Below are positions 2,078 to 50,495 of a stretch of DNA of 51,687 nt, one piece after another. Position numbers and translations under genes: made by a program. Each line of letters starts with the position of its first letter. Positions within the stretch are counted from its first letter, which is position 1. A model generated the notes under the pieces. It did not search any database, was not told where the DNA came from, and saw only the letters and a program-made list of their open reading frames with translations. This stretch comes from Candidatus Hydrogenedentota bacterium (GTDB lineage Bacteria; Hydrogenedentota; Hydrogenedentia; Hydrogenedentales; JAJRTN01), in the NCBI GenBank assembly GCA_024278275.1, contig JAJRTN010000180.1, positions 1 through 51,687 on the forward strand. Direction: 5' to 3'.

Positions 2078-2773
2078 ATGACTACGGCGAACACGATCCT
2101 GGAACTGGAGGCGGTCACCAAGGCGTATGCCGGGCCGGCCGGATCCACGCCCGTACTCAAGGGCGTTGATCTTGCCGTTGAGGCGGGTGAAACGGTGGCC
2201 ATCGTGGGACCCTCGGGCTGCGGCAAGAGCACCCTGCTCAACATGGCGGGCACCCTCGATCAGCCCGACGGCGGGCGCGTCACCTTTCGCGGCAAAAGCC
2301 TGCCCGGCATGACGCCGAAAGAAGCCGCACGATTCCGGAACAACGAGATCGGCTTTGTCTTTCAGCTTCATCACCTGCTCCCGCAGTGCAGCGTGCTGGA
2401 GAACGTGCTGGTACCCACCCTGGTACACACCGGGGGGGAGGACGCCCCGGAACGGGCCCGTCAACTGCTCGACCGCGTGGGCCTGTCGGACCGCCTCGAC
2501 TACCGGCCCGGTCAATTGTCGGGTGGCGAACGGCAGCGTGTGGCCGTGGCGCGGGCGCTCATCAACCGGCCCGCTCTCCTCCTCGCGGATGAGCCCACCG
2601 GTTCGCTGAGTCCCGAAGGGGCCATGGATCTGACGCGGTTGATGATCGCGTTGAACCGGGAAGACGCGCTCACGCTGGTGGTGGTGACCCACAGCCAGGA
2701 GGTCGCCGCGCACATGGGACGGGTGGTCGAATTGCGCGACGGCGTGCTGCGGCCCCGCGAGACGCGGCCATGA
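2078..2773 (+). CDS. ABC transporter ATP-binding protein, LolD/MacB type
   Basis: A 231-aa ATPase with all standard motifs in order: Walker A GPSGCGKST (about residues 44-52), Q-loop FVFQLHHLLP (about 93-102), signature LSGGERQR (about 147-154), Walker B LLLADEPTG (about 167) and switch histidine in VVVTHSQE (about 202). The short single-domain form and the N-terminal pattern LELEAVTKAYAGPAG match the LolD/MacB/FtsE group that powers FtsX-type permeases. AGGAGG lies just upstream of the ATG. It overlaps the permease by 4 bp (ATGA), so the two are translationally coupled. Its role is to drive a mechanotransmission-type exporter or extractor of lipoproteins or peptides; the substrate is unknown. 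Confidence 0.92.
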   Translation: MTTANTILELEAVTKAYAGPAGSTPVLKGVDLAVEAGETVAIVGPSGCGKSTLLNMAGTLDQPDGGRVTFRGKSLPGMTPKEAARFRNNEIGFVFQLHHLLPQCSVLENVLVPTLVHTGGEDAPERARQLLDRVGLSDRLDYRPGQLSGGERQRVAVARALINRPALLLADEPTGSLSPEGAMDLTRLMIALNREDALTLVVVTHSQEVAAHMGRVVELRDGVLRPRETRP

Positions 2774-5700
2774 ACCGGCTTCGCCTGATACGCCGGAGCA
2801 TGGGCTATTACCGGCGCATGCACCTGGGGGTTTTCGCGGGCGCCGTGGTGGGTGCGGCGGTGTTGACGGGCGCCCTGCTGGTGGGGGATTCCGTGGACGC
2901 TTCGCTCCGGGGCATCGCCCTGGCCCGGCTGGGCGACACGGCCCATGCCCTTGACACGCGCAAGCAGTATTTTCGGGAAGAACTCGGCGAACGACTGTCC
3001 ATGCGCATGGGCCACACGATCCCTTCGGTGCTCCGCTTGCGGGGGATGGCCCTGGCCGAGCCGCCCGCCGTGCCCGAACGGCGTCAGGCCAACCGCGTGC
3101 AGGTGCTGGGGGTCGGAAAAGACTTCTGGACACTTGCGGGCGGAGGGGACGGAATCCCTGCCTCACCGGGTCCCGCCGCTGTCATCAACACGCATCTGGC
3201 GCAACGGCTGGGTGTTGGCGCCGGTGACGAGATTGCATTGCGCATCGAGATCCCCGACCGCATGTCACGGGACGCGCCCCTGTCGGCACGGGACGAGGAC
3301 CGGTCGATCCGCGTGCGGCTCACCGTTGAACGGGTGGCGCCGGATCGCGGTTTGGGGCGCTTCAGCCTGGCCACCGACCAGACCGCGCCCTACAATGTGT
3401 TTTTGCCGCGAGCGTGGCTCCAGGAGCAGGTGCGTCTGCCGGGCGAAGTGAACCTGTTGCTGGCGGGTACCGCGGTCGAGGCGGAAAAGCTCGCCCATAC
3501 GCTGCGGGACGAATGGTCGCCGGCGGACGTGGGGCTTCATGTCCGCGGTAAGGTGCTGGAATCGGATCGCGTTTTCCTGGGCGGTCCCGTGGCGAAGGCC
3601 GCCCTGACCCTGCCGAATGCCACCGGCACCCTGGCCTACCTTGTGAACACCATCAGCAGGGACGGGAAGCGAACGCCCTATTCCTTCATGGTGGCCGGGG
3701 CGACACCGAAGGGCATGGACGATGATGAAATCATCATCAGCGAATGGCTGTCCGGGCAGATCAGCGCTTCCGTGGGCGACACGGTGACGGTGGCCTATTC
3801 CGTGCTGCTGCCCGACAACCGCTACGAAGAACGAAAACGGGACTTCACGGTACGCGGCATCGCGTCCATGGATGCCATGATCGAGGCACGAAAACTGGTA
3901 CCCTCGTTCCCGGGCCTGGAGGATGTGGAGAATTGCGCGGACTGGGACGTGGGCCTGCCCATGGACGAGGAACTCCTCGCCGACAAGGCGAACGAGGCCT
4001 ACTGGGACGCCTACCACACGACGCCGAAGGCCCTGGTGACCCTCGCGGCGGGCCAGGCCATGTGGTCAAACCGTTTCGGCAGCCTGACGGCGGTCCGCTT
4101 CGCGGGGAAGAACGATACGCCGGACGCCATCCTGGCCGGGCTGAAGGACGCCCTGGATCCGGCGGCGGTGGGGCTCGTGTTCCGCCCCGTGCGGGAGGAG
4201 GCCCTGACCGCCGTGTCCCGGGCCATCGATTTCGGGGGACTTTTTCTCGGCATGAGTTTCTTCCTGATCCTCTCCGCCTTCCTGTTGACGGGACTGCTCT
4301 TCGTCCTGGGCGCGCAATACCGGGCCGGGGAAATGGGCATCCTGCTGGCCCTGGGCTTCACCCCGGCGCAGGCCCGCCGTCAGCTTCTCGCGGAGGCCGG
4401 CCTGGTGGCCGTGGCGGGTGGCGCGACCGGGGCGTTGGCCGGATGCGGCTACACGTGGGCGCTTATCCAGGGCCTGGCGCATTACTGGCAGAGCGCGGTG
4501 GCCCATTCCCCCATCCTCTTCCACGTGACACCCGGCACGCTGCTCACGGGCGCGGTGGCCAGCTCTCTCGCGGCCCTCTTCGCCATGGTGACGGCCACCT
4601 GGCGCCAGGTGCGCCTTCCCGCCCGCCAGTTGCTCACTCTGGACTTCGCCTCAACCTCGCCGGGCCGGGAACGTTTCCCCCGGGCCGGCCTGTGGTTTCC
4701 GCTGCTGGGACTGGCCTTCGCCTGCGTGTCGGCGGTCTGCCTCGCGCTGTACGCCACGGGCAGCATCGTGGAGCCCTTCTTCGGTGTGGGTGCGCTCGTG
4801 TTGCTTTCCGGCTTGGGCCTGTGCCGGCATGCGCTCTGTGTGCTGGGTGCGGGAAGCAGCGCGCGCCATCCCACGCTCTTCCGGCTGGCCCTGCAAAACA
4901 TGGCACGCCGCCGGGCGCGCAGCCTGAGCGTTATCGTCTTGCTGGCGAGCGGTTGTTTCCTCGTTTTCGCGGTATCGGCCATGAAGGAAGACCTGACGAA
5001 AGGCGCCCATCGGCGCGCGTCGGGCACCGGCGGCTTCGCCCTCTTCGGGGAATCCACGCTGAGCCTGCTCGAAGCGCCCTCGGACACGGCCGTGGGCATC
5101 AAGGTGCGTGATGGCGACGACGCGAGTTGCCTTAACCTCAACCACGCCATGACCCCGCGCCTCCTGGGCGTCAACGGGACGGAACTGGCATCCCGCGGCG
5201 CTTTCGCGTCCCGGGAGCAGGCGAAGGCGCTGTGGTCGCTGCTGGATCTCGACCTGCCCGACGGGGTCATCCCCGCGCTGGTGGGCGACAGCGACACCGC
5301 CATGTGGGGCCTGAAGGCGAAAATGGGCGTGGAAAACGGCGACGAGCTGACCTACCTCGACGACCGGGGCGAAAGCTTCCGGGTGCGCCTGGTGGCATCG
5401 CTCCCCATGCGGCTCTCCGTGTTCCAGGGCACGATCCTCATTGCCGACCAGTACTTCACGGAACGCTTCCCCTCGGAGGCGGGTTACCGCATGTTCCTCA
5501 TCGACGCGCCGCCCGGCGAGGCCGCCACGGTGGCACGGTCGCTCAACCGGCGATTCGAGCGGGAAGGGATCGAGGTCATCCCCAGCGTGAAGCGTCTTGC
5601 ACGGTTTTACGCGGTGGAGAGCACCTACCTCGGCATGTTCCTGGTGCTGGGCGGACTGGGGGTCTTGCTGGGCACGGTCGGCATGGGCATCGTGACCCTT

Positions 5701-6003
5701 CGCAACCTGCTGGAGCGGCGGGGTGAAATTGCCATGCTTCGCGCCGTGGGATACAATACGGTCTCGATCCGCCGTCTTCTCCTCATGGAGCACGGCATGT
5801 TGGCGGCCATGGGCCTGGCGCTGGGTGTTATCGCCGCGGCGGTGGCCATGATTCCCGCAATCGCCTCGGCCTCCTCCGGTGTGGCGCTTGGCCTACAGCT
5901 TCAATTGCTGGCGGGTATCGCCCTGTGCGCGGCAGGCTGCATTGCCTTGGCCCTGCGCGCCGCCCGGCCGGGGCGGGACTTGTCCGCACTGAGAAATGAA
6001 TAA
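2770..6003 (+). CDS. large FtsX-family ABC transporter permease
   Basis: A 1077-aa inner-membrane protein. A first membrane helix lies near residues 19-40, then a large extracytoplasmic region of about 440 residues. A first FtsX domain with several helices spans roughly 485-620, followed by further helices near 640-745, a second extracytoplasmic region, and a second FtsX domain near 955-1065 (GGLGVLLGTVGMGIVTLRNL, then RRGEIAMLRAVGY). The first FtsX domain carries the matching RAGEMGILLALGFTPAQ coupling segment. This duplicated-FtsX architecture belongs to the type VII ABC superfamily, which moves lipoproteins, peptides or surfactants rather than passing solutes through a channel. No MacA-like adaptor or TolC is nearby. 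The downstream inverted repeat with a T-run suggests the operon ends here. Confidence 0.88.
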   Translation: MNRLRLIRRSMGYYRRMHLGVFAGAVVGAAVLTGALLVGDSVDASLRGIALARLGDTAHALDTRKQYFREELGERLSMRMGHTIPSVLRLRGMALAEPPAVPERRQANRVQVLGVGKDFWTLAGGGDGIPASPGPAAVINTHLAQRLGVGAGDEIALRIEIPDRMSRDAPLSARDEDRSIRVRLTVERVAPDRGLGRFSLATDQTAPYNVFLPRAWLQEQVRLPGEVNLLLAGTAVEAEKLAHTLRDEWSPADVGLHVRGKVLESDRVFLGGPVAKAALTLPNATGTLAYLVNTISRDGKRTPYSFMVAGATPKGMDDDEIIISEWLSGQISASVGDTVTVAYSVLLPDNRYEERKRDFTVRGIASMDAMIEARKLVPSFPGLEDVENCADWDVGLPMDEELLADKANEAYWDAYHTTPKALVTLAAGQAMWSNRFGSLTAVRFAGKNDTPDAILAGLKDALDPAAVGLVFRPVREEALTAVSRAIDFGGLFLGMSFFLILSAFLLTGLLFVLGAQYRAGEMGILLALGFTPAQARRQLLAEAGLVAVAGGATGALAGCGYTWALIQGLAHYWQSAVAHSPILFHVTPGTLLTGAVASSLAALFAMVTATWRQVRLPARQLLTLDFASTSPGRERFPRAGLWFPLLGLAFACVSAVCLALYATGSIVEPFFGVGALVLLSGLGLCRHALCVLGAGSSARHPTLFRLALQNMARRRARSLSVIVLLASGCFLVFAVSAMKEDLTKGAHRRASGTGGFALFGESTLSLLEAPSDTAVGIKVRDGDDASCLNLNHAMTPRLLGVNGTELASRGAFASREQAKALWSLLDLDLPDGVIPALVGDSDTAMWGLKAKMGVENGDELTYLDDRGESFRVRLVASLPMRLSVFQGTILIADQYFTERFPSEAGYRMFLIDAPPGEAATVARSLNRRFEREGIEVIPSVKRLARFYAVESTYLGMFLVLGGLGVLLGTVGMGIVTLRNLLERRGEIAMLRAVGYNTVSIRRLLLMEHGMLAAMGLALGVIAAAVAMIPAIASASSGVALGLQLQLLAGIALCAAGCIALALRAARPGRDLSALRNE

Positions 6004-6091: not shown

Positions 6092-6301
6092 CACCCCCAA
6101 ACGCCTCCAAAAGGATCCCAATAGAAGGCGGTCACCGGGTGTAGGCGTCATATCATGCTGAAAGGATTGTGTTCACGGTAACCGCCGGTGGTTTGAGGCC
6201 TGTCGGCTTCACCGCCGAGGGCGGCGGCGCCACATCCAAGAGAATACACATTGGCGAATCAGGCCGTAAACGCTTACTAACCGATTAAGAAAAAGAGCCC
6301 C

Positions 6302-7774
6302 ATGTTCAAAGGCGTCAACATACCCGACCTCAGCGGGAACCGAAAGGCCAACATGCTGGCCATCGGGTCCGCCGTGGCGGTCAGCGCCGTGGCGGCGCTC
6401 ACCGCCCTGGCGCTGTGGCTGGGCAGCGGTCCCTCCGTGGCGGTGTACACTTGCGAGCCCGGCCAGGACGGCCGGCCCGAGGGACTCGATGCACTGGGCG
6501 GCCCCATCGACATGTCCGGTGTCTTTGAGCGTTTTGGTGACGTTGCGCCCGAGATGCCCGGGGCATGGGTCCGCTTCCGGGGCGGGGATTCCCGCAATAT
6601 CGTCGAGGACGGCCCGCCCCTGGCCAATGCCTGGCCCGAAACCGGCCTCCCGATCCTGTGGTCGGTTGAACTGGGGGATGGCTATGCGGCCGCGGCGGTA
6701 TTGGACAGCCGGGTGTATGTCCTGGACTACGATCCCAAAAGGCGGGCGGACGTCTTGCGCTGCCTGGCGCTCGCGGACGGCACGGAACTCTGGCGGCGTG
6801 CTTACGAGGTGACGGTCAAGCGGAATCACGGCATGTCCCGCACCATTCCGGCGGTGACGGAAAAATACATCGTGACCATCGGTCCGCGATGCCACGTGGT
6901 GTGTCTCGACACGGCCACGGGCGATTTTCGCTGGGGTATCGACCTTCAACGGGACTACGGGACCGCGGAACCCCTGTGGTATACTGGGCAGTGTCCGATC
7001 ATCGAGGGCGGGCGCGCGATTATTGCCCCGTGCGGCGAGGAGGTGTTGATGATGGCGGTGACGTGCGAAACGGGGGAGGTGGCATGGTCCACGCCCAATA
7101 CGCACGGCTGGAATATGTCCCACTCCTCGATTATCCCCATGACCCTCCTCGGCAAGAAAACCTATGTTTACTGCGCCCTGGGAGGCATCGCGGGCGTTTC
7201 GGCGGAAGCGCAGGACGCGGGCGCGCTGCTTTGGGAACGCCCCTGGGACGCCAAGGTAGTGGCTCCCTCGCCGGTGCAGGTGGGCGACGACAAGATCTTC
7301 ATGACCGCCGGGTACGGCAAGGGCAGCATGATGCTCCAACTCAGCCGCGACGGTGACGACTGGACCGTTGAGACGCTGTATGAGCGGGTGCCGAAGGAGG
7401 GCCTTTCCTGCGAACAGCAGACGCCCCTCTACCATGATGGCCTGCTTTACGGGATCATGCCGAAAGATGCCGGCGGGCTGAAGGGCCAGTTCGTCTGCTA
7501 CCGGCCCGGCGGGGAACTGGTCTGGTCGAGCGGCCAAGACAACCGTTACGGACTGGGGCCGTTCATGCTGGCGGACAACAAGTTTTTCATCCTGGACGAC
7601 GAGGGTGAACTCACCCTGCTCGACGCCACGGCGGCGGGCTTTGCCCCCCTGGCAAAAGCGGAAGTACTCGACGGGCATGATGCGTGGGGGCCCCTGGCCC
7701 TGGCGGGAACGCGCCTGCTGCTGCGCGACTTGGGAAAAATGGTCTGTATTGACGTGGGCGCGAAAAATGAATAG
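6302..7774 (+). CDS. membrane-anchored PQQ-like beta-propeller protein
   Basis: A 490-aa protein with one N-terminal membrane helix (about residues 18-41) and a long extracytoplasmic beta-propeller. PQQ-type blade strands are visible, for example TGLPILWSVELGDGYAAAAV, LADGTELWRRAYEV, CLDTATGDFRWGIDL and CETGEVAWSTPNTHGW. The stretch WVRFRGGDSRN before the first blade resembles the FRG motif of the propeller proteins at 10818 and 19249. There is no cytochrome c motif and no clear PQQ-dehydrogenase active site, so the domain may be structural or bind another ligand. It starts the six-gene redox cluster ending at 12677. The next start lies within 25 bp, so co-transcription is likely. Confidence 0.82.
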   Translation: MFKGVNIPDLSGNRKANMLAIGSAVAVSAVAALTALALWLGSGPSVAVYTCEPGQDGRPEGLDALGGPIDMSGVFERFGDVAPEMPGAWVRFRGGDSRNIVEDGPPLANAWPETGLPILWSVELGDGYAAAAVLDSRVYVLDYDPKRRADVLRCLALADGTELWRRAYEVTVKRNHGMSRTIPAVTEKYIVTIGPRCHVVCLDTATGDFRWGIDLQRDYGTAEPLWYTGQCPIIEGGRAIIAPCGEEVLMMAVTCETGEVAWSTPNTHGWNMSHSSIIPMTLLGKKTYVYCALGGIAGVSAEAQDAGALLWERPWDAKVVAPSPVQVGDDKIFMTAGYGKGSMMLQLSRDGDDWTVETLYERVPKEGLSCEQQTPLYHDGLLYGIMPKDAGGLKGQFVCYRPGGELVWSSGQDNRYGLGPFMLADNKFFILDDEGELTLLDATAAGFAPLAKAEVLDGHDAWGPLALAGTRLLLRDLGKMVCIDVGAKNE

Positions 7775-7798
7775 GGAATGGGGGAAGGAAAGGCAGAC

Positions 7799-8791
7799 AT
7801 GAAAGAGCCGGTACGGAGACTGAAGCGCCCCTGGCTGGTGTACGTGTGCGTCGCCGCCATTGCGGTCGTCTATTTCGGCCTGCTCGCGAAGAATCGTCAC
7901 CCCGAGCCGGGCGCCAACCTTCGTTATGATGTGTCCGATTACCGGCAGGTCGACACCGTGGAAACGCGTTTCGTGGAGACCGGCCGTATCAAGCTTGCCG
8001 TAGAAGATGCCCGGGCGATGACCGTCCTTGCGGCGGGAGGGTTGATGGTGGGCGGCAAAAACGTGGTGGCCCTCTATGATGAGGGCGGCCGGGAAGTGTC
8101 GCGTTTCTCCATCAAAGGCACCCCGACCAGTATAACGCAAGCCCCCGGCGGGGAAGTGCTCATCGCCCTGCGCGACCACGTCGCCACCTTCGATCTCCAC
8201 GGAACGATGAAGAAAACCTGGGATTCCCTCGGCGAAAGGGCATATCTCACTTCCATGGCCGCGGATGAGGAGAACGTTTACGTGGCCGACGCGGGGAACC
8301 GGGTGGTGTATCGCTTCGACCGGTCGGGCCGTCTGCTGAACCGCATCGGCGAGGCGGATCCGGCCCGTGATATCCGCGGGCTGGTGGTACCCAGCCCCTA
8401 TTTCGATGTCGCCCTCGATGGGGAGGGTATGCTTTGGGTGGTGAATCCGGGAGAACTGGGACTGGAAAATTACCGCCCCAACGGCGACCTCATCACGTCG
8501 TGGTATAAACCTTCCATGAAACTGGAGGGTTTTTGTGGCTGCTGCAATCCTTCCCACATCGCCTTCACACCGGCGGGAAGCCTGGTGACCTGCGAGAAGG
8601 GGTTGGTTCGGGTCAAGATTTACGATGTGACCTCCGGGGAGTTTCAGGAACTGGTGGCGGGCTCGGAGCTGTTTCCGAAGGAACAGGCCGTGCGTGATCT
8701 CGCCGTGGACACGCGGGGCCGTATCCTGGTGCTGGATCCACGCCACGATGCCGTGCGAATCTTCGAGGTAAAGGAGAAGACCGATGGGTAA
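7799..8791 (+). CDS. membrane-anchored NHL-type beta-propeller protein
   Basis: A 330-aa protein with an N-terminal helix (VYVCVAAIAVVYFGLLA, about residues 12-30) and an exported six-blade-like propeller. Blades contain NHL-style turns such as VYVADAGNRVVYRFDRSGR, LWVVNPGELGLENYRPNGD and ILVLDPRHDAVRIFEV. A cysteine cluster, FCGCCNPSH near residue 245, is unusual for an NHL propeller and could bind metal or form a disulfide with cluster partners. I chose ATG 7799 because GGAAGGAAAGG precedes it at good spacing; an in-frame ATG at 7778 would add seven residues. It overlaps the next gene by 8 bp. Likely a periplasmic scaffold for the ferredoxin proteins downstream; this is inferred from gene order. 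Confidence 0.78.
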   Translation: MKEPVRRLKRPWLVYVCVAAIAVVYFGLLAKNRHPEPGANLRYDVSDYRQVDTVETRFVETGRIKLAVEDARAMTVLAAGGLMVGGKNVVALYDEGGREVSRFSIKGTPTSITQAPGGEVLIALRDHVATFDLHGTMKKTWDSLGERAYLTSMAADEENVYVADAGNRVVYRFDRSGRLLNRIGEADPARDIRGLVVPSPYFDVALDGEGMLWVVNPGELGLENYRPNGDLITSWYKPSMKLEGFCGCCNPSHIAFTPAGSLVTCEKGLVRVKIYDVTSGEFQELVAGSELFPKEQAVRDLAVDTRGRILVLDPRHDAVRIFEVKEKTDG

Positions 8792-8987
8792 ATCCCTTGA
8801 CCGCGAGGAATTCTTGCGAAGCCTGGGCCGGTCGGGCGCGCTGTTGGGCATGGGCCTTCTCGGCGTGGCCGCCCTGCGCGGATCGCGTTCGCCCGGGGAG
8901 TGCGTCAACACGTGGCAGTGCGCCGCCTGCCGGGTCTATGGGGACTGCCGTCTGCCGGAGAAGAAGAAGGAGGTGGAGAAGCCGTGA
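8784..8987 (+). CDS. small cysteine-rich protein with N-terminal hydrophobic segment
   Basis: A 67-aa protein: a polar start (MGKSLDREEFLRSLGRSG), a hydrophobic stretch at about residues 19-31, then four cysteines at 40, 46, 49 and 55 (CX5CX2CX5C), and a lysine/glutamate-rich tail. The first part looks like a Tat signal that has lost the second arginine (REEFLRSLGRS), or a membrane anchor. The four cysteines could hold a small Fe-S or zinc centre. It overlaps the preceding gene by 8 bp and the ferredoxin gene by 4 bp (GTGA), so it is almost certainly translated as part of the cluster. I do not recognise a named family. A standard gene caller could miss it because of its size. Confidence 0.7.
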   Translation: MGKSLDREEFLRSLGRSGALLGMGLLGVAALRGSRSPGECVNTWQCAACRVYGDCRLPEKKKEVEKP

Positions 8988-9547
8988 GTGAACGAAAGAA
9001 ACTGGACCGCCGGGATTTCATGCGGGGCGCGGCGGCGGCCGCCTTCGCGGGGGCCACGTGGTTCGCCGCCGGTTCCAAGGCGGAAGACACGGTGTGGCAG
9101 CTCGACCCGAACAAGTGTACCCAGTGCGGCCGTTGCTCCACCCATTGCACCCTGAACCCTTCGGCCGTGAAATGCCTGAATCAATTCAATATCTGCGGCT
9201 ATTGCGATTTATGCTTCGGTTATCTCCACCCGGGGTCACGGGAACGCGACACGGACGCGGAAAACCTGCTCTGTCCCACCGCGGCCATTGAACGGAAGTT
9301 CATTGAAGCCCCCTATTACGAATACAAGATTCATGAAGAACGCTGCATCGGTTGCGCGAAGTGCGTCGAGGCCTGCCTGGTCTTCGGAAACGGATCGTTT
9401 TATTTGCAGGTTCGCCAGGATATCTGCGTGAACTGCAACGAATGTTCCATCGCCAAGGCCTGCCCGTCGGAGGCTTTCAGCCGTGTGCCCGCGTCAAAAC
9501 CGTATCTTTACATTACCGGCGACACGCCGCCAAACGTCGTGAGATGA
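8984..9547 (+). CDS. Tat-exported polyferredoxin, NapG-like
   Basis: A 187-aa protein with a Tat signal (DRRDFMRG at residues 8-15, then an alanine-rich stretch). Cysteine groups suit about four [4Fe-4S] clusters: C45X2CX2CX3C, ICGYCDLCFG, RCIGCAKCVEAC and ICVNCNECSIAKACP. I chose the GTG at 8984. It follows AGGAGG (8968-8973), overlaps the upstream stop as GTGA, and places the Tat motif at the N-terminus; the longer frame from 8900 has no such logic. It overlaps the membrane partner at 9544 by 4 bp. By analogy with NapG/NapH it should accept electrons from the membrane ferredoxin outside the cytoplasmic membrane. No nitrate or nitrous oxide reductase is present, so the acceptor is unknown. 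Confidence 0.85.
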   Translation: MSERKKLDRRDFMRGAAAAAFAGATWFAAGSKAEDTVWQLDPNKCTQCGRCSTHCTLNPSAVKCLNQFNICGYCDLCFGYLHPGSRERDTDAENLLCPTAAIERKFIEAPYYEYKIHEERCIGCAKCVEACLVFGNGSFYLQVRQDICVNCNECSIAKACPSEAFSRVPASKPYLYITGDTPPNVVR

Positions 9548-10818
9548 AGCTGTATCTGATCATAGTTATTGCCGGTATCGTGTTGACGGCGACCTTCAGC
9601 GCCATGGCGATAGAAATCCGTTTCGCCATGCCCGATTTCCAATCGGGCTATTCGCTTCCGGATATCTTCACCCCCGATCCCCCGGCCGGTTTCGGCACGT
9701 GGGATGTGGCCATCCTTTTCGGTGCCCTTTCCCTCGCCACGTGGCTGGTGCTGAAGAAACGGTCCCGGCGGGGCCTGTTCCTCCTGGGCATCGCCAGCCT
9801 GCCGTACTTCGGCTTCTGGCGCAAGGGGTGTATCTGTCCCGTGGGTTCTCTCCAGAACGTGACGGCGGCGGTGCTGCTGCCCGACGTGGGCGTTTCGGTG
9901 CTGGTGGTGTCGTTTTTCCTGCTGCCCCTGCTTTTCGCCCTCTTTTTCGGGCGGGTCTTTTGCGCCGCCGTGTGCCCCCTGGGCGCCATGCAGGAGTTGG
10001 TGGCCATCTTCCCCGTTCGCATATCAACGGCCATCGACCGCAGCCTCGGCCTCTTCAAGTATGTCTACCTCGGCGTGGCGGTGCTGGGCGTGGCCATGGG
10101 CGCGGGCTTCTTCGTGTGCCGCTACGATCCTTTCGTCGGTATCTACCGCCTGGGTCACAGCTTCAACATGCTTCTTGCCGGCGGGGTTATTCTACTGCTG
10201 GGGGTCTTCATCGCCCGGCCCTACTGCCGTTTCCTCTGCCCTTACGGCGTCTTGCTGGGATGGATGTCGCGCTTTTCGAAATGGCACCTCCACATCGCAC
10301 CGGCCGATTGCGTCTCCTGCCGCCTCTGCGAGGACTCCTGCCCCTACAACGCCATCGACATGCCCACCCCGGAGATTCCGCCCGGGGAACGCGACCATGG
10401 GCGAACACGTTTGCGCCGCATGGTCTGGCTCGCACCGGTCATCATCCTGCTGGGCGCGGCGGGGGGCGCGCTCATGCACGAGCCCCTGTCGCGCATGCAC
10501 CCCCGCGTGTTACTGAGTGAGCGCATCGCGGCGGAGGAACGGGGATTGTTCGAGGAACAGAGCCAGGAAAGCGAGTCTTTCCGCGCGGGCGGTGAAACCA
10601 TTGAATCGCTTCACGCCGAGGCCGTCGCCCTGCGCGGTCGCTTCAAAACCGGCGGGGCCTGGCTGGGCGCGTTCCTGGGACTCATGGTGGCCCTCAAGCT
10701 CATCGGCCTGTCGACCGTCAAGGAACGGACGATTTTTGATCCCAATCGTGAAACCTGCTTCAGTTGTGGCCGCTGCTATCCCTATTGCCCCGTGGAAGAG
10801 GAAGTGCGAGAGACCTGA
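9544..10818 (+). CDS. NapH/NosR-like membrane-bound polyferredoxin
   Basis: A 424-aa integral membrane protein. N-terminal helix (about residues 2-22), then helices near 55-75, 120-135, 165-185 and 205-225, and another near 295-315. Cysteine motifs of the NapH/NosR/RdxA group are CICPVGSLQ (about 98), FCAAVCPLGAMQE (about 139) and CRFLCPYGV (about 227), followed by ferredoxin motifs CVSCRLCEDSCPYNA (about 259) and CFSCGRCYPYCPVEEE at the C-terminus (about 405). Such proteins oxidise quinol or relay electrons across the membrane. ATG 9544 was chosen because it overlaps the upstream stop as ATGA and starts directly at the first helix. The last cluster motif lies within 20 residues of the end, as if docking a partner. 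Next gene overlaps by one base (TGATG). Confidence 0.86.
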   Translation: MKLYLIIVIAGIVLTATFSAMAIEIRFAMPDFQSGYSLPDIFTPDPPAGFGTWDVAILFGALSLATWLVLKKRSRRGLFLLGIASLPYFGFWRKGCICPVGSLQNVTAAVLLPDVGVSVLVVSFFLLPLLFALFFGRVFCAAVCPLGAMQELVAIFPVRISTAIDRSLGLFKYVYLGVAVLGVAMGAGFFVCRYDPFVGIYRLGHSFNMLLAGGVILLLGVFIARPYCRFLCPYGVLLGWMSRFSKWHLHIAPADCVSCRLCEDSCPYNAIDMPTPEIPPGERDHGRTRLRRMVWLAPVIILLGAAGGALMHEPLSRMHPRVLLSERIAAEERGLFEEQSQESESFRAGGETIESLHAEAVALRGRFKTGGAWLGAFLGLMVALKLIGLSTVKERTIFDPNRETCFSCGRCYPYCPVEEEVRET

Positions 10819-12677
10819 TGTTAGCCAAACCTGAATTCGACAAGAATCTCTTCCTGTGGCGGACGGCGGCCGCGGTGACGGTGGTCTCCGGGCTGTTTTC
10901 CGTGCTGGTCTTTCTCCTGCTCGTGCTGAACTACCTCCAGGTTCAGCGGGCGGATCCCATTGATGATCCCACCCTTACGAACCTGCGCCAGGAATATGCC
11001 GCCGCCCCCGAACGGGACGAGGCCCTCGCCCAACGCATCCGCGAACTGGACCTCCTTACACGGAAGGCCTTCTTCACGAGCCAGAACCAACTGCGTATCG
11101 GGGGCATACTTTTATTGGCGGGAGTGGCCGTGTTTCTCGTGGCGTTCAAGAACATGGCGCGATGGAAGCCGGAACTTCCCCAACTGTCCGACCCGCCCGC
11201 GGCCGAAGAGGAATGGGCGGCGGTCGCCACGTCACGCCGGATTATCGGATGGCTAAGCGTGGCCGTGTTGGCCGCCGGTCTCCTGTCCGCCTACCTGACC
11301 GAAAGCCTCGTCGCGCCGGCGCCACCGGAGCTTGCGCAGACCCCGCCCGGAGAAGAGACCGCGACCGTCGCTTCCCCGGGAAGCGCCCCGGAACGGACCT
11401 ACCCCACATGGGAAGAAATCGAGGTCAACTGGCCGTCCTTCCGGGGACCGGGCGGCGCCGGCGTCGCCCACTTCACGAACATCCCCACCCGGTGGAATGT
11501 GGAAACGGGGGAAGGCGTCCGCTGGGTCACCGAGCTTCCCCGCGTGGCGGCCAACTCCCCCGTGATTTGGGGGAACCGCCTCTTTCTCTCGGCCGCGGAT
11601 GAAAACACCCGTGAGATGTTTTGCTATGACACCGAAACGGGGAAGTTGCTGTGGACCCACGGGCTCACGCCCTTTCCCGGCACGCCCGCTCAACCGCCCA
11701 AGGTCACCGAAGACACGGGTTACGCAGCGCCCACCATGGTGGCCCACGGCGACCGGGTCTGCGCCATCTTCGCCAACGGCGACGTGGCCTGCCTGGACTT
11801 CGAGGGCAACCCGGTCTGGGGCCGCAACCTGGGCGTGCCCGTAAATCACTACGGCTATGCCTCCTCCCTTATCGCGTATGAGAACCTCCTCCTGGTGCAG
11901 TACGACCAGAACGAGGGCGGAAAAGCAATGGCCCTGGACATGGATACGGGTAAAACCGTTTGGACCGCCGCGCGGGAAAAGATCTCCTGGGCTTCGCCCA
12001 TTATTGCCCGCACGCCTTTGGGCGACCAGCTTATGCTCTGTTCCGAAAAGCAGGTGGATGCCTACGATCCCGTGTCTGGAGCGCTTCTCTGGTCGGAGGA
12101 ATGCCTCGGCGGTGAAGTGGCTCCTTCGCCCGCCTACCGCGACGGCGTGGTTTTCGTGGCGAATGAATACGCCACCGCCACCGCCATCAAGCTGGGGGGT
12201 ACGGCGGACGCCGTCGAACCCGCGGTGCTGTGGGAGTGGGACGAACTGCTGCCGGAGGTCGCCAGTCCCGTGGGCGACGGCAAACATTTCTATATCGCCA
12301 CCTCCATGGGCGACCTGCTCAGTCTCGACGCCAGGACGGGCGAGGAAGCCTGGACCGAAATGTTCGACGACGGTTTCTACTCTTCCCCCATTCTCGTGGG
12401 CGACCGCCTCTACGTGGCCGACATGGGCGGGACCATCCACATTGTCGGCACGGGCGACACCTACCAGGAAATCGCCACGCCGTCCATGGGCGCGCCCGTT
12501 TACGCCACCCCCGCCTACCTGGACGGCCGCCTCTACGTGCGCACCGAGAAACACCTCTACTGTATTGAGAATCGAGGCGATAAGACTTCGCAGACCGAAT
12601 CCCGTCCCCCCACCATACCCGCGCAAGCCCGCATTCTTAACAGGCCCGAAGAGGCGGCAGTATGTGGCCGTGGGTGA
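10818..12677 (+). CDS. PQQ-like beta-propeller protein fused to three membrane helices
   Basis: A 619-aa protein starting at ATG 10818 (TGATG overlap with the preceding stop). Helices lie near residues 16-38, 92-112 and 138-158. A linker leads to WPSFRGPGGAGVAHF near 210 and a PQQ-type propeller with blades such as CYDTETGKLLWTHGL, ALDMDTGKTVWTAAREK, AYDPVSGALLWSEEC and SLDARTGEEAWTEMF. The helices presumably pair with the NapH-like protein, leaving the propeller outside the cytoplasm. It closes the six-gene cluster. The last nine or so residues (EEAAVCGRG) and the stop codon lie inside the left inverted repeat of the IS200-like element at 12653, so the native C-terminus has been replaced by repeat sequence. 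Confidence 0.82.
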   Translation: MLAKPEFDKNLFLWRTAAAVTVVSGLFSVLVFLLLVLNYLQVQRADPIDDPTLTNLRQEYAAAPERDEALAQRIRELDLLTRKAFFTSQNQLRIGGILLLAGVAVFLVAFKNMARWKPELPQLSDPPAAEEEWAAVATSRRIIGWLSVAVLAAGLLSAYLTESLVAPAPPELAQTPPGEETATVASPGSAPERTYPTWEEIEVNWPSFRGPGGAGVAHFTNIPTRWNVETGEGVRWVTELPRVAANSPVIWGNRLFLSAADENTREMFCYDTETGKLLWTHGLTPFPGTPAQPPKVTEDTGYAAPTMVAHGDRVCAIFANGDVACLDFEGNPVWGRNLGVPVNHYGYASSLIAYENLLLVQYDQNEGGKAMALDMDTGKTVWTAAREKISWASPIIARTPLGDQLMLCSEKQVDAYDPVSGALLWSEECLGGEVAPSPAYRDGVVFVANEYATATAIKLGGTADAVEPAVLWEWDELLPEVASPVGDGKHFYIATSMGDLLSLDARTGEEAWTEMFDDGFYSSPILVGDRLYVADMGGTIHIVGTGDTYQEIATPSMGAPVYATPAYLDGRLYVRTEKHLYCIENRGDKTSQTESRPPTIPAQARILNRPEEAAVCGRG

Positions 12678-13300
12678 GCACAGCGAGCCCACGGTAGGTT
12701 GTGTATTATTACATTAGCCCCGAAGGGGTGATAGAGTGGGAAAGGAGAGTCTCTTTTGGGCGGGACATTCAGCAATCTCTTATACCACATTGTTTTCAGC
12801 ACAAAAAGCCGAAAAAACTTTCTCACGGACACATTACGTCCGCGCCTGTATGAATACATGGGCGGCACCATTCGAAAACAACGCGGCGTTCTGTACAATA
12901 GCGGCGGCACGGGCGACCACGTTCATCTCCTTCTTCGTTGGCGACCGGATGCGTCCATTTCGGATTTGGTGCGAGATGTCAAGAGCGCTTCATCGGGTTG
13001 GATACACAAGACATTCCCCGACCTTTCGGATTTCCACTGGCAGGACGGTTTCGGCGCCTTTTCGGTAAGCTATTCACAATCTGACAAGGTCAAAGCCTAC
13101 ATCTCAAACCAGGAGCATCATCATCGTGACGCGGACTTCAAGAGTGAATTCAGGGCTTTGCTTCAGGCCCACGCGATCAAATTCGACGAGGAGTACATTT
13201 GGCTGTGAATGGAGGTTACTGTCACCCCTTCGGGGCTTGGGTATGTTGCGCACCGCAACCGTGGGCTCGCTTCGCTCACCCACGGCTACCTGCTGCCGCC
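12653..13300 (+). mobile_element. IS200/RAYT-like element bounded by 82-bp inverted repeats
   Basis: The left arm 12653-12734 and the reversed right arm 13219-13300 align over 82 bp with roughly 70% identity. Each arm carries two hairpins: CCGTGGG...CCCACGG and CCCCGAAGGGG. Between them lies one HUH transposase gene. Classic IS200/IS605 elements lack terminal inverted repeats but have subterminal hairpins; paired REP-like hairpins around a lone Y1 transposase fit a REP-associated tyrosine transposase unit. The element overlaps the 3' end of the gene at 10818 and abuts the 81-bp tandem array to the right. Confidence 0.75.
12756..13208 (+). CDS. IS200-like/REP-associated Y1 transposase
   Basis: A 150-aa HUH single-strand transposase. 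Recognisable family segments are YHIVFSTKSRKNFL near the start, the HUH motif in GGTGDHVHLLLRW (His-Val-His, about residues 50-56) and the catalytic-tyrosine helix KAYISNQEHHH near 115-125. The length matches TnpA of the IS200/RAYT group. The start is TTG 12756, preceded by AAAGGAG at 12741-12747. No accessory TnpB is present. The reading frame is intact, so the enzyme may be active and may mobilise the hairpin repeats that flank it, as RAYTs are thought to do. Confidence 0.9.
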   Translation: MGGTFSNLLYHIVFSTKSRKNFLTDTLRPRLYEYMGGTIRKQRGVLYNSGGTGDHVHLLLRWRPDASISDLVRDVKSASSGWIHKTFPDLSDFHWQDGFGAFSVSYSQSDKVKAYISNQEHHHRDADFKSEFRALLQAHAIKFDEEYIWL

Positions 13301-13560
13301 CCTTCGGGGCTGAAATGATGTTGTCCTCCCCGGGCGTTCTCTCCGGGAGAACCAGCCGTTCTGCGCCGTCCTATCGCCATCCTTTCGGGGCTGAAATGAT
13401 GTTGTCCTCCCCGGGCGTTCTCTCCGGGAGAACCAGCCGTTCTGCGCCGTCCTATCGCCATCCCTTCGGGGCTGTAATGATGTTGTCCCCCCTGGGCACC
13501 CTCCGGGAGGACCAGCCGTTCTGCGCCGTCCTACCGCCGCTCCTTCGGGGCCGTGATGGC
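13301..13560. repeat. 81-bp tandem repeat array beside the transposase
   Basis: TTCGGGGC begins at 13303, 13384, 13465 and 13544, giving about three full units of 81, 81 and 79 bp plus a partial one. Each unit contains CCTTCGGGGCTG, a CTCCGGGAG-type palindrome and CCGTTCTGCGCCGTCCTA. The first two copies are almost identical; the later ones drift. The array continues straight from the right arm of the IS200-like element, whose CCCCTTCGGGG hairpin it shares. No coding function; 13561-13658 holds nothing recognisable. Confidence 0.88.
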
Positions 13561-13658: not shown

Positions 13659-16142
13659 ATGACCGTTACCATGGCTGACTCATTAAACATTACCGAAATC
13701 GACCAAATCGTCGCGGCGCGGGGGCGCGGGGCGGAGGCGGTGATCCCCATTTTGCAGGCGATCCAGATGCGCTTCCGCTATCTGCCCGAGGCCGCCCTCG
13801 AACGGGTCTGCGAACTGACCGATATCACCCCGGCTTCCATCGAGGGCGTGGCTTCGTTCTATTCCCAGTTCCGCACGCGTCCCGTGGGGCGGCATGTCAT
13901 CTCCGTGTGTGACGGCACGGCCTGCCATGTAAAAGGATCGGGCGATATTTTCGACGCCGTGCGGGAGGAACTCCACCTCGAAGGGAACCGGGACACGGAC
14001 GAGGACGGTGAGTTTACGGTGCAAAAGGTGGCGTGTCTCGGATGTTGTTCCCTGGCGCCCGCCGTGCAGATCGACGGCCTGACCTATGCCAAGGTGCGCC
14101 CCGATTCCGTTCACGGCATGTTGGAGGACTTCCTGCGCCATGGGGCGGAGGGCGGGGGAATGTCGCTGGACGCGCCCCGCGCGGTGAAGGCCAACGGCGC
14201 GGAAATCCGTATCGGCCTCGACAGTTGTTGTGTGGCGGGGGGCAGCGGCAAGGTGCGGGAGGCCCTGGAACGGGCGCTGGCGGAAGCGGGCTCGACGGTG
14301 CCGGTGAAACATGTCAGTTGCGTCCACATGTGCCAGCAAATCCCCCTGATCGAGGTGGTGCTGCCCGACCGTCCCGTTCAAAGCTACTACCAGGTGCGGC
14401 CGGAGGAAGTAGCGGACATTGTGGCCCGTCATTTCAAGCCGCGCAAGCCCTTTGTCTGGATGAAGACCTCCACCAGCCGTTGGCTGGACCACCTCTACAC
14501 CCGTCCCGCCTCCCTCACCCCGGAACGCCACGAGACCGGCGTTCGGGACCGGCACATCGCTGCCTTTCTCGGCTACCAGCGCCACATCGCCACGGAACAC
14601 CGGGGCGAACTGAATCCCGGCGACCTGGACGAGTATCTCCGCAAGGGCGGCTTCATGGCCCTGGAGAAATGTCTCTTCGGCAAGGCCGCGGGCGCCGTAC
14701 TCCTGGCGCGGCACCGGGGCGAAAGCCTGGTGGACAATCCGCCCGGCGGCGCGGGCTGGTCCGCACAACGAATCATCGAGGAAATCCTGGAGAGCGGTCT
14801 GCGGGGCCGGGGTGGGGCGGGCTTCCCCACGGGACGCAAGTGGCAGTTCGTTCACGATGCGCCTGGCGACCGGAAGTTCATTATCTGCAACGGCGACGAA
14901 GGCGATCCGGGCGCGTTCATGGATCGCATGATCCTGGAATCCTACGCCTACCGGGTCATCGAGGGCATGATCATTGCCGCCCTGGCCGTGGGCGCGGCGG
15001 AAGGCTACCTCTACATCCGCGCCGAGTACCCCCTGGCGACGCGCCGCATGCGGCAGGCCATCAAGGATTGCGAGGCGGCGGGTATACTGGGCGACAATAT
15101 CCTTGGCAGTGGTCGCCGCCTGACTTTGCAGGTGAAGGAGGGCGCCGGGGCCTTTGTCTGTGGCGAGGAGACCGCGCTCATCGCCTCGCTGGAAGGACGG
15201 CGCGGCATGCCGTCCATACGTCCCCCCTATCCCGCGCAGGAGGGATTATACGGCTGTCCCACGCTTATCAACAACACCGAAACCCTGGCCATGATCCCCT
15301 GGATCATCCGCAACGGCGCGGCGGCCTTCGGCGCACTTGGCACGGCGAAGAGCAAGGGAACCAAGGTCTTCTCGCTGGCGGGCAAGATCCGCAACGGCGG
15401 CCTTATCGAGGTGCCCATGGGCATCACCCTGCGCCGGATTGTCGAGGAAATCGGCGGCGGGGTCGAGGAAGGCCGCAGGGCCAAGGCGGTTCTCGTGGGC
15501 GGTCCCTCGGGCGGCTGCATTCCCGAGCGCCTCTTCGACACGCCCGTGGACTACGAAGCGCTGTCGGAAGTGGGCGCCATGATGGGATCGGGCGGCATGG
15601 TGGTGCTCGACGATTCGGATTGCATCGTGGAAATGGCGCGGTACTTTCTCTCTTTTACCCAGGAGGAGTCGTGCGGGAAATGCACGCCCTGCCGCATCGG
15701 CACCAAGCGCATGCTGGAAATGCTGGAGCGTCTGTGCGCGGGCAAGGGCAAGGCCGCCGATCTGGACTTGCTGGAACAGCTTGGCGGCGTGGTGAAAAAA
15801 CAAAGTCTCTGCGGCCTCGGTAAGACGGCGCCGAACCCCGTCATCACGGCCCTGCGCTATTTCCGCGAAGAATTCGAGGCCCATGTGGCGGGCCAATGCC
15901 CCGCCGGCCGCTGCAAGGCGCTTATTGACTACTGGGTGGAGGACACCTGTATCGGCTGTACCCTATGCGCCCAGGTCTGTCCCGTGGATTGTATCGAGTC
16001 GCGCCCTTACCGGATGCACCTTATCGATTTGGATACTTGTACACGTTGTGATGTCTGCCGGGTGGCCTGCCCGGTAGACGCCATCAAAGCGGGGTCGCGC
16101 GATCCCGAGGAAGCCAAGAGCCTTGCCGAATCTGGTCATTAA
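13659..16142 (+). CDS. NuoE-NuoF fusion with C-terminal ferredoxin domain (NADH-oxidising diaphorase)
   Basis: An 827-aa fusion. Residues about 8-165 form a NuoE-type thioredoxin-fold [2Fe-2S] domain with C84, C89, C126 and C130 (CX4C...CX3C). About 180-270 is a second, HndC-like [2Fe-2S] domain (SCCVAGGSGK, CVHMCQQ). About 350-740 is NuoF: FMN/NADH loops LRGRGGAGFPTGRKW (near 379) and CNGDEGDPGAFMD (near 409), and the [4Fe-4S] ligands ESCGKCTPCRIG (near 670) with SLCGLGKTAPNP (near 717). The C-terminus carries two [4Fe-4S] motifs, CIGCTLCAQVCPVDC and CTRCDVCRVACPVDA. This is the electron-input module of bifurcating hydrogenases and formate dehydrogenases, with separate HndA and HndC genes fused. 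It overlaps the next gene by 20 bp. No hydrogenase or dehydrogenase catalytic subunit is adjacent. Confidence 0.9.
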   Translation: MTVTMADSLNITEIDQIVAARGRGAEAVIPILQAIQMRFRYLPEAALERVCELTDITPASIEGVASFYSQFRTRPVGRHVISVCDGTACHVKGSGDIFDAVREELHLEGNRDTDEDGEFTVQKVACLGCCSLAPAVQIDGLTYAKVRPDSVHGMLEDFLRHGAEGGGMSLDAPRAVKANGAEIRIGLDSCCVAGGSGKVREALERALAEAGSTVPVKHVSCVHMCQQIPLIEVVLPDRPVQSYYQVRPEEVADIVARHFKPRKPFVWMKTSTSRWLDHLYTRPASLTPERHETGVRDRHIAAFLGYQRHIATEHRGELNPGDLDEYLRKGGFMALEKCLFGKAAGAVLLARHRGESLVDNPPGGAGWSAQRIIEEILESGLRGRGGAGFPTGRKWQFVHDAPGDRKFIICNGDEGDPGAFMDRMILESYAYRVIEGMIIAALAVGAAEGYLYIRAEYPLATRRMRQAIKDCEAAGILGDNILGSGRRLTLQVKEGAGAFVCGEETALIASLEGRRGMPSIRPPYPAQEGLYGCPTLINNTETLAMIPWIIRNGAAAFGALGTAKSKGTKVFSLAGKIRNGGLIEVPMGITLRRIVEEIGGGVEEGRRAKAVLVGGPSGGCIPERLFDTPVDYEALSEVGAMMGSGGMVVLDDSDCIVEMARYFLSFTQEESCGKCTPCRIGTKRMLEMLERLCAGKGKAADLDLLEQLGGVVKKQSLCGLGKTAPNPVITALRYFREEFEAHVAGQCPAGRCKALIDYWVEDTCIGCTLCAQVCPVDCIESRPYRMHLIDLDTCTRCDVCRVACPVDAIKAGSRDPEEAKSLAESGH

Positions 16143-17631
16143 CAACCGCGCCGTGGAAGTAGCCGAAGGTACATCACTCCTCAAGGCGGCCCGGGAAATG
16201 GGGATCGAGGTCCCCACCCTCTGTCACTGGGAGGGCGTGCGGCCCATGAACTCGTGCATGTTGTGCGTGGTGCGCGAGGTGAAAAGCGGCCAGTTGCTGC
16301 CCTCCTGCTCGACCTTGGTCCGCGAGGGCATGGAGGTCGAGACGGACGGAAGCGAGGTCTGCGAGGCGCGCAAGGAGGTGCTGGAACTCCTCACCAGCGA
16401 GCACCTGGGCGACTGCGAAGCGCCGTGCAGCCATACCTGCCCCGCCTCGATGAACATCCCCGCCATGATGCGGCAGATCTACACGGGCGATCTCGACGCG
16501 GCGGCTTTCACCGTCACCAACGGCCTCGTTTTCCCCTGGACCCTGGGTTATGTCTGCCCGGCGCCCTGCCAAAACCCCTGCCGCCGCAAGCAATATGACT
16601 CGACCATGCAGATCCGGGAACTGCACAAGGCGGTGGCGGAGAAGGCGTTGAAAGACAACCCCGAACTGCTGGAATGTCTGCCCGATACGGGGAAGCGTGT
16701 AGCGATCATCGGCGCCGGGCTTGCGGGCATGGCGGCGGCGTGGGTGCTGCGCAAGCAGGGCCACGCCTGCACGGTATACGAGAAGGAGTCCGTGGCCGGG
16801 GGCAAGCTGCGGCGGCTGCCGGAGAAGGCGTTGCCCGCCGCCGTGCTGGACACGGAGATCGCGTGGGTGGCACGACTCGGCATCGATTTTTTCCACGACA
16901 CGGAAATCACGGAAGAGTCGCTGGAACCCATCCTGGAATCCAGTGACGCCGTCATCGTGGCGTGCAAGGGCGTGGCGAAGCCCGGCGGGAAGATTTTCCC
17001 TGCGGCGGAACACAAGCTCGCCGTCCGCTGCGTGGGCAACGGCAAGACCGCCGCGCTCTGGGCGGACCGCTACCTGCGCAGCATGGACCCCAGGCCCAAA
17101 GCCGCGGTGTTCGATTCCAAGGCGGGCAAGCTGGCCAAGACCGAACTCGAAACGATGCGCGCCGTCAATGAAAACCGCGAGGCTTTTCCGCCCGCCGGTA
17201 CCAACGGCGAACTGGCCGACGCCCGCGAAGAGGCGGGCCGTTGTCTCCATTGTGACTGCCGGAAACGCTCCACGTGCAACCTGCGCCGCTACGCTTCGGA
17301 ATACGGCGTGGAGAAGCGCAAATACACCACCACCGAGGAACGGGTCTACCAGGTCATCGGCGGCGATGGCGACGTCATCTTCGAGCCGGGCAAGTGCATC
17401 AAGTGCGGGCTGTGCGTGGAGATCGCCCGAAAGCACGGCGAGGAGATCGGCCTGACCTTCAGCGGGCGCGGCTTCGACGTGGAGATCAAGGTGCCCTTTG
17501 GCCGCGCACTGGACCAAGCGCTTCAGGCCTCCGCCGAGGAGTGCGTTGCGGCCTGCCCCACCGCGGCCATATCATTCAGGAACAAGGAAGACGCCCGGAA
17601 TTGTCACACGGCGCTCTATACCGGGAAATGA
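16123..17631 (+). CDS. [2Fe-2S]/GltD-like flavoprotein with truncated NAD(P) domain and C-terminal ferredoxin
   Basis: A 502-aa protein from TTG 16123, inside the end of the preceding gene. Residues 1-75 form a NuoG/HydA-type [2Fe-2S] domain (C34, C45, C48, C62). Residues about 95-165 match the cysteine-rich N-terminus of glutamate synthase small subunits (CEAPCSHTCPASMNIP, CPAPCQNPC). A FAD Rossmann motif IIGAGLAGMAAAW lies near 194. The usual second nucleotide-binding domain is mostly missing: the chain jumps from SDAVIVACKG to a short VGNGKTAALWADRY segment. Cysteine motifs CLHCDCRK and CIKCGLCV...CPTAA (about 367 and 425-485) end the protein. It is the natural partner of the NuoEF fusion, carrying electrons onward. 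The shortened domain suggests it no longer binds NAD(P)H itself. Confidence 0.83.
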   Translation: MPNLVINNRAVEVAEGTSLLKAAREMGIEVPTLCHWEGVRPMNSCMLCVVREVKSGQLLPSCSTLVREGMEVETDGSEVCEARKEVLELLTSEHLGDCEAPCSHTCPASMNIPAMMRQIYTGDLDAAAFTVTNGLVFPWTLGYVCPAPCQNPCRRKQYDSTMQIRELHKAVAEKALKDNPELLECLPDTGKRVAIIGAGLAGMAAAWVLRKQGHACTVYEKESVAGGKLRRLPEKALPAAVLDTEIAWVARLGIDFFHDTEITEESLEPILESSDAVIVACKGVAKPGGKIFPAAEHKLAVRCVGNGKTAALWADRYLRSMDPRPKAAVFDSKAGKLAKTELETMRAVNENREAFPPAGTNGELADAREEAGRCLHCDCRKRSTCNLRRYASEYGVEKRKYTTTEERVYQVIGGDGDVIFEPGKCIKCGLCVEIARKHGEEIGLTFSGRGFDVEIKVPFGRALDQALQASAEECVAACPTAAISFRNKEDARNCHTALYTGK

Positions 17632-49879: not shown

Positions 49880-49900
49880 GTTCCGCCCGCCGCCCGCCCG

Positions 49901-49929
49901 TTGCGTCTGTTTGCCACGTGGGCTATAAT
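49901..49929 (+). promoter_or_regulatory. predicted sigma70 promoter of trxA
   Basis: TTGCGT (49901-49906), 17-bp spacer, TATAAT (49924-49929): a perfect -10 and a 4-of-6 -35, ending 92 bp before the thioredoxin start. The best promoter match found in the window. Confidence 0.7.
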
Positions 49930-50021
49930 TCCGGGGCGGGGGCGTCCGTGAGAGGACGCGTGATTCCCCGTTTGGCAGGTTCGGGAAACCGGGCTGATTC
50001 CGCGAGCGAAGGAGAACCGTC

Positions 50022-50342: not shown

Positions 50343-50373
50343 GCCACCAGTATCGAATGGATACAGGAAGCGG

Positions 50374-50400
50374 CCGCTCCGGAACTCGATTCCGGGGCGG
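50374..50400 (+). terminator. hairpin after trxA
   Basis: CCGCTCCGGAA (50374-50384) pairs with 50390-50400 (one mismatch) across a 5-nt loop, followed by TTGTCCTGT. It lies 31 bp after the trxA stop and is a reasonable terminator despite the weak U-run. Confidence 0.6.
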
Positions 50401-50495
50401 TTGTCCTGTATGCCGCCCGGAATGGGGATTCCCACGGGATCATCTTCCGCGGGGGACCTACAATCAATCCCCAAAAAGTAAGGAGAAAACGACAA

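Follow-up and report, generated by a model that had tools for sequence, protein, structure and literature searches.

A conserved beta-propeller and iron–sulphur gene cluster joined to a predicted electron-bifurcating core in a Hydrogenedentota bacterium

Genes of the locus and their predicted products

Contig JAJRTN010000180.1 of a Candidatus Hydrogenedentota bacterium (GCA_024278275.1; assembly of 5.35 Mb, 96% complete), which with its entire length of 51,687 bp (contig C151 of this genome) constitutes the window analysed here, contains at 6302–12677 six open reading frames on the same strand, designated A to F, which code for beta-propellers and iron–sulphur (Fe–S) proteins. The overlaps of 8 bp (B/C), 4 bp (C/D and D/E), and 1 bp (E/F) agree exactly with an initial annotation, which had considered these genes a possible quinol-linked electron-transfer cluster with NapG-like and NapH-like members. 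The unit reaches beyond this cluster: downstream of F it continues with G and H, a conserved pair missed by that annotation and predicted to form an electron-bifurcating core, and upstream it probably includes the genes of an ABC transporter, K and L (Table 1). The junction between F and G is split in the window by a Y1 transposase gene and, following it, by 3.2 copies of an 81-bp tandem repeat (13295–13551), unlike in relatives (e.g., locus L038), where F and G abut or overlap. Scans for promoters, terminators, and Rfam families revealed nothing above chance.

Concerning G, the closest solved relatives all belong to the Bfu family, namely NfnB of Thermococcus sibiricus (9n5u), StnB (9bov, 8oh5), NiFe-HydB (7t2r), and FeFe-HydB (7q4v). 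The bifurcating core of this family is defined by six clusters, including the B2 site, whose histidine is lacking in non-bifurcating homologues (PMC9304861). Protein G possesses the domain for flavin mononucleotide (FMN) and all six Fe–S cluster sites, with ligands kept at 96–100% in 47 G sequences: C620, C655, H742, C747, and C752 at B2, C84/C89/C126/C130 at C1, C190-191/C221/C225 at B5, C672/675/678/718 at B1, and C764-774 and C794-804 at B3/B4, the residues being assigned to clusters by position and not by structure. Judged by these ligands, G is a member of the Bfu family and an NADH/FMN/ferredoxin electron-bifurcating core, with its activity predicted.

Protein H aligns with StnC (8oh5_C) solely at StnC positions 6–284 and 476–671, leaving a gap of about 190 residues at 285–475; in the match between H and NfnA, the GGGNTAMD motif of the NADPH-binding Rossmann fold falls within the gap. 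Across 57 H sequences covering all lineages, this second Rossmann motif is absent throughout, and the glycines on the side of flavin adenine dinucleotide (FAD) and all Fe–S cysteines are kept. By its homology to StnC/NfnA and its position directly after G (in 40 of 45 loci with enough sequence), H is classified as a BfuA relative stripped of the NADP(H) site. Without this site the third redox partner must therefore be other than NADPH, and the gene linkage points to the membrane module as this partner.

The central protein of this module, E, exhibits 15 invariant cysteines in 97 sequences, 12 of which match those of Escherichia coli NapH (two CX3CP and two 4Fe–4S motifs), whereas C96, C98, and C192 are additional, as is a two-helix insertion (hairpin) inside the ferredoxin domain that NapH does not possess. 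According to hydropathy, the positive-inside rule, and the helices of a model (predicted local distance difference test, pLDDT, of 80), the CX3CP and 4Fe–4S motifs would face the cytoplasm and C96, C98, and C192 the outside, with the 4Fe–4S motifs joined from both sides of the last transmembrane hairpin; such an arrangement would suit the passage of electrons through the membrane. A fold search with E against PDB returned nothing (best E 1.2), and among PDB sequence profiles E matched ferredoxin segments only and D was unmatched at 1e-6.

The exported protein D combines a twin-arginine translocation (Tat) signal and 4Fe–4S motifs with 16–17 invariant cysteines (108 sequences), which leave room for a predicted four 4Fe–4S clusters. 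In the small protein C, the motif CX5CX2CX5C is kept at 98–100% in 64 sequences; these four cysteines and one arginine are its only conserved residues, and no Pfam family was matched. A twin-arginine signal is found in 44 of 63 C homologues, being degenerate in the copy of the window, and because of this motif, insertion of a cofactor before export is suggested. No FMN-binding domain was recognised by Pfam in any of the six proteins A to F.

Among the propellers (all structures mentioned are single-chain predictions), A has a single N-terminal helix followed by a PQQ_2 propeller, with BamB as the nearest fold of its model (pLDDT 90.6). An RNHGxSRT loop, H274, C201, C231, C399, and C482 are near-invariant across phyla in 96 sequences, such that A is, as far as its sequences indicate, conserved to the degree of an enzyme. 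One to four further A-like propellers are situated upstream of A in many Bacteroidota loci. Propeller B, of the SGL/NHL type and likewise behind one helix, exhibits vicinal cysteines (C248-C249) followed by NP, conserved in 98–100% of 110 sequences, 13 of which carry a Tat-like RRxF signal. A second NHL paralogue of B is found in four loci (L042, at 8926–11037, L048, L060, and L061), either adjoining B or alone elsewhere in the genome. In F, helices within the first approximately 170 residues are followed by a PQQ_2 propeller.

Table 1. Positions of the genes of the system and of adjacent features in the window
Feature	Position	Strand	Basis
A: membrane-anchored BamB-fold beta-propeller, core	6302..7774	+	PQQ_2, predicted fold, conserved loops/Cys
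B: membrane-anchored NHL propeller, core	7799..8791 (alternative start 7778)	+	SGL/NHL, vicinal Cys
C: 67-aa four-cysteine extracytoplasmic protein, core in most lineages	8784..8987	+	CX5CX2CX5C
D: Tat-exported polyferredoxin, core	8984..9547, GTG start	+	Tat signal, 4Fe–4S motifs
E: polytopic Fe–S membrane protein, core	9544..10818	+	Fer4_5 (NapH-type membrane module), split 2x4Fe–4S domain
F: predicted three-helix anchor and extracytoplasmic PQQ_2 propeller, core	10818..12677	+	PQQ_2 (E 2.7e-26)
G: BfuC+BfuB fusion (NuoE-NuoF type)	13659..16142	+	Pfam domains, conserved cluster ligands
H: BfuA-like NuoG-N/GltD protein without NADPH domain	16123..17631, TTG start	+	StnC alignment
K: ABC transporter ATPase (YbbA/LolD type), probable associated part	2078..2773	+	PF00005 (E 4.5e-36)
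L: 1077-aa double-FtsX ABC permease, probable associated part	2770..6003	+	PF02687, twice
IS200-like Y1 transposase, 150 aa, outside the system	12756..13208	+	PF01797 (E 2.5e-28)

Conservation and distribution of the gene order

A total of 107 non-redundant loci, representing about ten phyla among the matches listed, share the order A-B-(C)-D-E-F. Loci were seeded by D (or by B within the order of the window, Hydrogenedentales), such that loci lacking D escape the counts; gene order was counted with hidden Markov models of the families, six contigs common to both sets being counted once, and when named genomes were scanned with the D alignment, the best 80 of at least 184 matches were used. 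Most loci originate from metagenome assemblies, and many of the genomes are incomplete metagenome-assembled genomes. The phyla were taken from record titles, some of which are doubtful for such genomes (one "Nitrospiraceae" contig has an identical counterpart in a genome from the order of the window). Among the matches listed, the groups comprise Bacteroidota, Planctomycetota, Verrucomicrobiota, Kiritimatiellota, Lentisphaerota, Spirochaetota, Desulfobacterales, Aminicenantes, KSB1, and Sumerlaeota, and the named hosts comprise Sunxiuqinia elliptica, Gaoshiqia sediminis, Draconibacterium sediminis, Mariniphaga anaerophila, Labilibaculum sp. K2S, Marinifilum fragile, and M. flexuosum. The gene order thus occurs in the cultured genera Marinifilum, Labilibaculum, Sunxiuqinia, Draconibacterium, and Mariniphaga.

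Where the flanking sequence suffices, 82 of 88 loci have A and B before D, 74 of 76 have E-F after it, and 58 of 62 have G after F; C is missing or diverged in one lineage among the fetched loci of the order. The propellers, which the initial annotation had placed in an extracytoplasmic redox unit, are hence an integral part of it and do not stem from unrelated operons. Equally, the cluster contains neither a classical terminal reductase nor a cytochrome gene, as had been stated, and no catalytic subunit of a molybdoenzyme or hydrogenase was seen in the inspected loci.

Within the order, B is present in 37 of 60 genomes (that of the window included), and H is found in 36 of these 37 genomes vs 5 of the 23 without B (Fisher 6e-10, not corrected for phylogeny); four families (f3, f5, f10, and f11) each include genomes with both genes and genomes with neither. 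Two genomes possess two full-length H copies each (G042 on contigs C18 and C58, G048 on C287 and C169), possibly due to duplicated and diverged systems or to a mixture of strains in the bin. The cytochrome bd gene cydA is rarer where the system occurs (7 of 37 genomes with B vs 12 of 23 without; p 0.01, not corrected for phylogeny), which is compatible with an anaerobic role, and for rnfC no clear link to the system was found in the 60 genomes. Because the tree of D and E largely tracks phylum, with Bacteroidota as one well-supported side (46 rows), the genes probably form an old set, passed on for the most part along with their hosts. Plasmid records contained no match to E.

Comparison with known systems and proposed electron route

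The G/H pair is most readily compared with the Stn/Nfn-Bfu enzymes (StnABC of Sporomusa ovata and NfnABC of T. sibiricus; 8oh5, 9n5u): G corresponds to StnA plus StnB with all core clusters, and H, which shares the Fe–S cysteines and the FAD motif of StnC, to that protein's NuoG-N and GltD parts. Despite this similarity, there are clear differences: G is one fused chain, H possesses neither the NADPH Rossmann domain nor the Fdh-like domain, and both are obligately linked to a membrane Fe–S and propeller module. An identity as an Stn/Nfn-Bfu transhydrogenase was rejected, the NADP(H)-binding GltD-type domain being absent from H. A Bfu core linked by its genes to a membrane redox module is also described for Mbh-Bfu and Nuo-Bfu; however, these use subunits of a [NiFe] energy-converting hydrogenase or of complex I and are without NapH-like, Tat ferredoxin, and propeller genes (PMC9304861). 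The same survey by Schut (2022) does not mention propellers, PQQ (pyrroloquinoline quinone), or NapH, and reports 17 BfuB clades without assigned function (PMC9304861).

Concerning the membrane module, E shares two CX3CP and C-terminal 4Fe–4S motifs with NapGH, NosR, and RdhC (PceC), D is a Tat polyferredoxin as in these systems, and a transfer of electrons to the periplasm is proposed for them as well. Unlike in these systems, E exhibits the putatively outward C96, C98, and C192 and two extra helices in the ferredoxin domain, an FMN-binding domain is missing, and there is no NapA, NosZ, or RdhA partner. The membership in the NapG and NapH families assumed by the initial annotation could not be upheld, since D scores 19.1 bits for NapG/MauM (TIGR00397, cut-off 178.85 bits) and E 52.8 bits for NapH/MauN (TIGR02163, cut-off 213.05 bits); NosR (NF046105, cut-off 1000 bits) yielded 34.3 bits. 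The nearest published idea is that of flavinylated NapH-like systems, in which a NapH-like protein is combined in modular fashion with extracytoplasmic oxidoreductases, among them the propeller enzyme ExaA (Meheust 2021, PMC8238504); in the present system, no FMN-binding domain is recognised and a Bfu core is situated on the donor side.

The Rnf complex shares with the present system a NuoF-like NAD site, polyferredoxins, and the coupling of ferredoxin and NAD(H) at the membrane, but the cluster lacks Rnf membrane subunits, a true rnfC is found on another contig of the same genome (G000:C196), and the G region scores only 37.7 for RnfC (TIGR01945, cut-off 245.95). Propeller A shares its fold with BamB, and A and F share the PQQ_2 domain with quinoproteins. 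Both are below all equivalog thresholds, possess other invariant residues, and are tied to Fe–S proteins: for BamB (TIGR03300, cut-off 285.2 bits) A scores 25.3 and F 67.9, and for PQQ alcohol dehydrogenase (TIGR03075, cut-off 480 bits) 12.7 and 32.0, respectively.

Moderately favoured is an interpretation of the products as a membrane-anchored Bfu complex of the HydABC type, in which the third partner is not NADPH but a transmembrane Fe–S wire leading from H through E, D, and C to the propellers. In such a complex, electrons of NADH and reduced ferredoxin would confurcate at G, with its FMN and its Fe–S clusters including B2, and would pass into the Fe–S relay of H, where the FAD half-domain is kept. 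H might dock on the cytoplasmic 2x4Fe–4S domain of E, which would carry the electrons from the CX3CP cysteines of the inner side across the membrane to C96, C98, and C192, and the exported D and C would take them onward to A, B, and F. One propeller would bind an acceptor or cofactor; most likely this outer site is in A, with its invariant RNHGxSRT, histidine, and cysteine loops, or in B, with its vicinal cysteines. Which way the electrons run, and what reaction takes place outside, is a matter of guesswork, the most likely case being that low-potential electrons are driven outward by confurcation. Outward flow is weakly favoured because it is assisted by the membrane potential and because the system tends to occur without cytochrome bd.

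Several points weigh against this interpretation. The physical interaction of the parts, including complex formation, docking, and electron route, is deduced from sequence, and the topology of E is a prediction from hydropathy, from charge, and from the pLDDT 80 model. Furthermore, the CX3CP motifs in NosR and RdhC may be disulphides instead of clusters (PMC5928378). A few loci (L131, L133, and L049) are without G or H nearby, the genome of the last (G001) containing H on another contig, and five genomes possess H without B (two of them fragmented, all possibly incomplete).

Among the alternatives, E might be quinone-reactive as a NapH-type protein, such that the system would be either an NADH(+ferredoxin):menaquinone oxidoreductase or a quinol-to-periplasm chain, with D, C, and the propellers as downstream carriers or scaffold. 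NapH, with which E shares the four-helix, two-CX3CP module, is a proposed menaquinol dehydrogenase (PMC5928378), and Nuo-Bfu represents a Bfu core wired to quinone (PMC9304861). Nevertheless, this alternative is rather unlikely, given the scores of E and D far below the NapH and NapG thresholds, the invariant, putatively outward cysteines and two-helix insertion of E that NapH lacks, and a quinone site that was not identified. NapA is not found near the cluster, and NapA-like matches occur in only 9 of the 60 genomes of the order, none above the cut-off and without tracking the system. Nothing specific speaks for quinol as donor, as had been proposed by the initial annotation; a link to pyridine nucleotide and ferredoxin is likelier because the conserved G/H pair is, by its ligands, an NADH/ferredoxin bifurcating core.

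Electrons might also flow inward, from A or B as an extracytoplasmic dehydrogenase via D, E, and H to G, which would bifurcate them to NAD+ and ferredoxin and thereby generate membrane potential. Bfu enzymes run in both directions (PMC9304861), and the propeller alcohol dehydrogenase ExaA is found together with NapH-like systems (PMC8238504). The invariant polar loops of A and the vicinal cysteines of B would fit such a dehydrogenase, whereas no propeller is above the quinoprotein threshold (PQQ_enz_alc_DH, scores as given above) and there is no hint of a substrate. The potentials of PQQ enzymes are moreover too high for the reduction of ferredoxin, and inward flow is judged unlikely, still more so than a quinone-reactive E. 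The least probable of the alternatives is a role in envelope biogenesis, in which low-potential electrons would reduce a precursor (lipid, glycan, or protein) that is exported and handled by K/L, a GT4 glycosyltransferase (J), and a secreted PQQ propeller (I). Of the 46 non-redundant loci whose downstream flank exceeds 9.5 kb, 31 contain I, 21 contain J, and 19 contain a gene of an FtsX-type ABC transporter (K or L), often at the edge of the locus; K and L directly precede A in the window, and a second cluster A'-J-I exists in the same genome. The association of I, J, K, and L is, however, looser than that of A to H, and none of them is a reductase.

If the Bfu complex with a transmembrane wire is real, it would constitute a new member of the Bfu family, with a third redox partner on the outer side of the cell membrane. 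More tentatively, with confidence short of even, the gene set may represent a widespread and ancient transmembrane bifurcating or confurcating complex, in which cytoplasmic NADH and ferredoxin are coupled by Fe–S clusters alone, with no cytochrome at that step, to an outer propeller site with new chemistry. This would be relevant to the use of NADH and ferredoxin at the membrane in anaerobic Bacteroidota, Planctomycetota, Verrucomicrobiota, and relatives, which the cultured genera named above open to study, and would provide a likely function, that of an electron conduit, for families whose matches are confined to the general models "4Fe-4S binding" or "PQQ-like propeller". In the open-access literature, no paper combining NapH, propeller, and electron bifurcation was found (accounts elsewhere are possible), none on this system by title or abstract for combinations of NHL, PQQ, polyferredoxin, NapH, and NuoF, and none on electron bifurcation in Prolixibacteraceae; the Bfu paper on Hydrogenedentota deals with BfuABC hydrogenases (PMC11406978).

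Associated genes and other features of the window

Many related loci contain homologues of K, of L, or of both on the same strand as the system; in Planctomycetota (L096, L123, and L134) these genes immediately precede A, as in the window (2078–6003), and in Bacteroidota they are situated downstream of H; L is 40% identical to the permease preceding A in L096 and L134. The second cluster A'-J-I is located on contig C128 (L154 5353–9627; G000:C128:37352–41626), and its families (A-like propeller, GT4, and secreted PQQ propeller) are those flanking the system in Bacteroidota.

Two long antisense frames of 900 aa (6209–8911) and 1759 aa (45659–50938), both on the minus strand opposite real genes, are presumably an effect of high G+C content, with no evidence for genes. 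A DUF6807 protein (1107–1997) is encoded upstream of the ABC transporter genes, and a 1213-aa BadF/BcrA ATPase and DUF2229 protein (46238–49879), of the 2-hydroxyacyl-CoA dehydratase activator type, is unlinked to the system.

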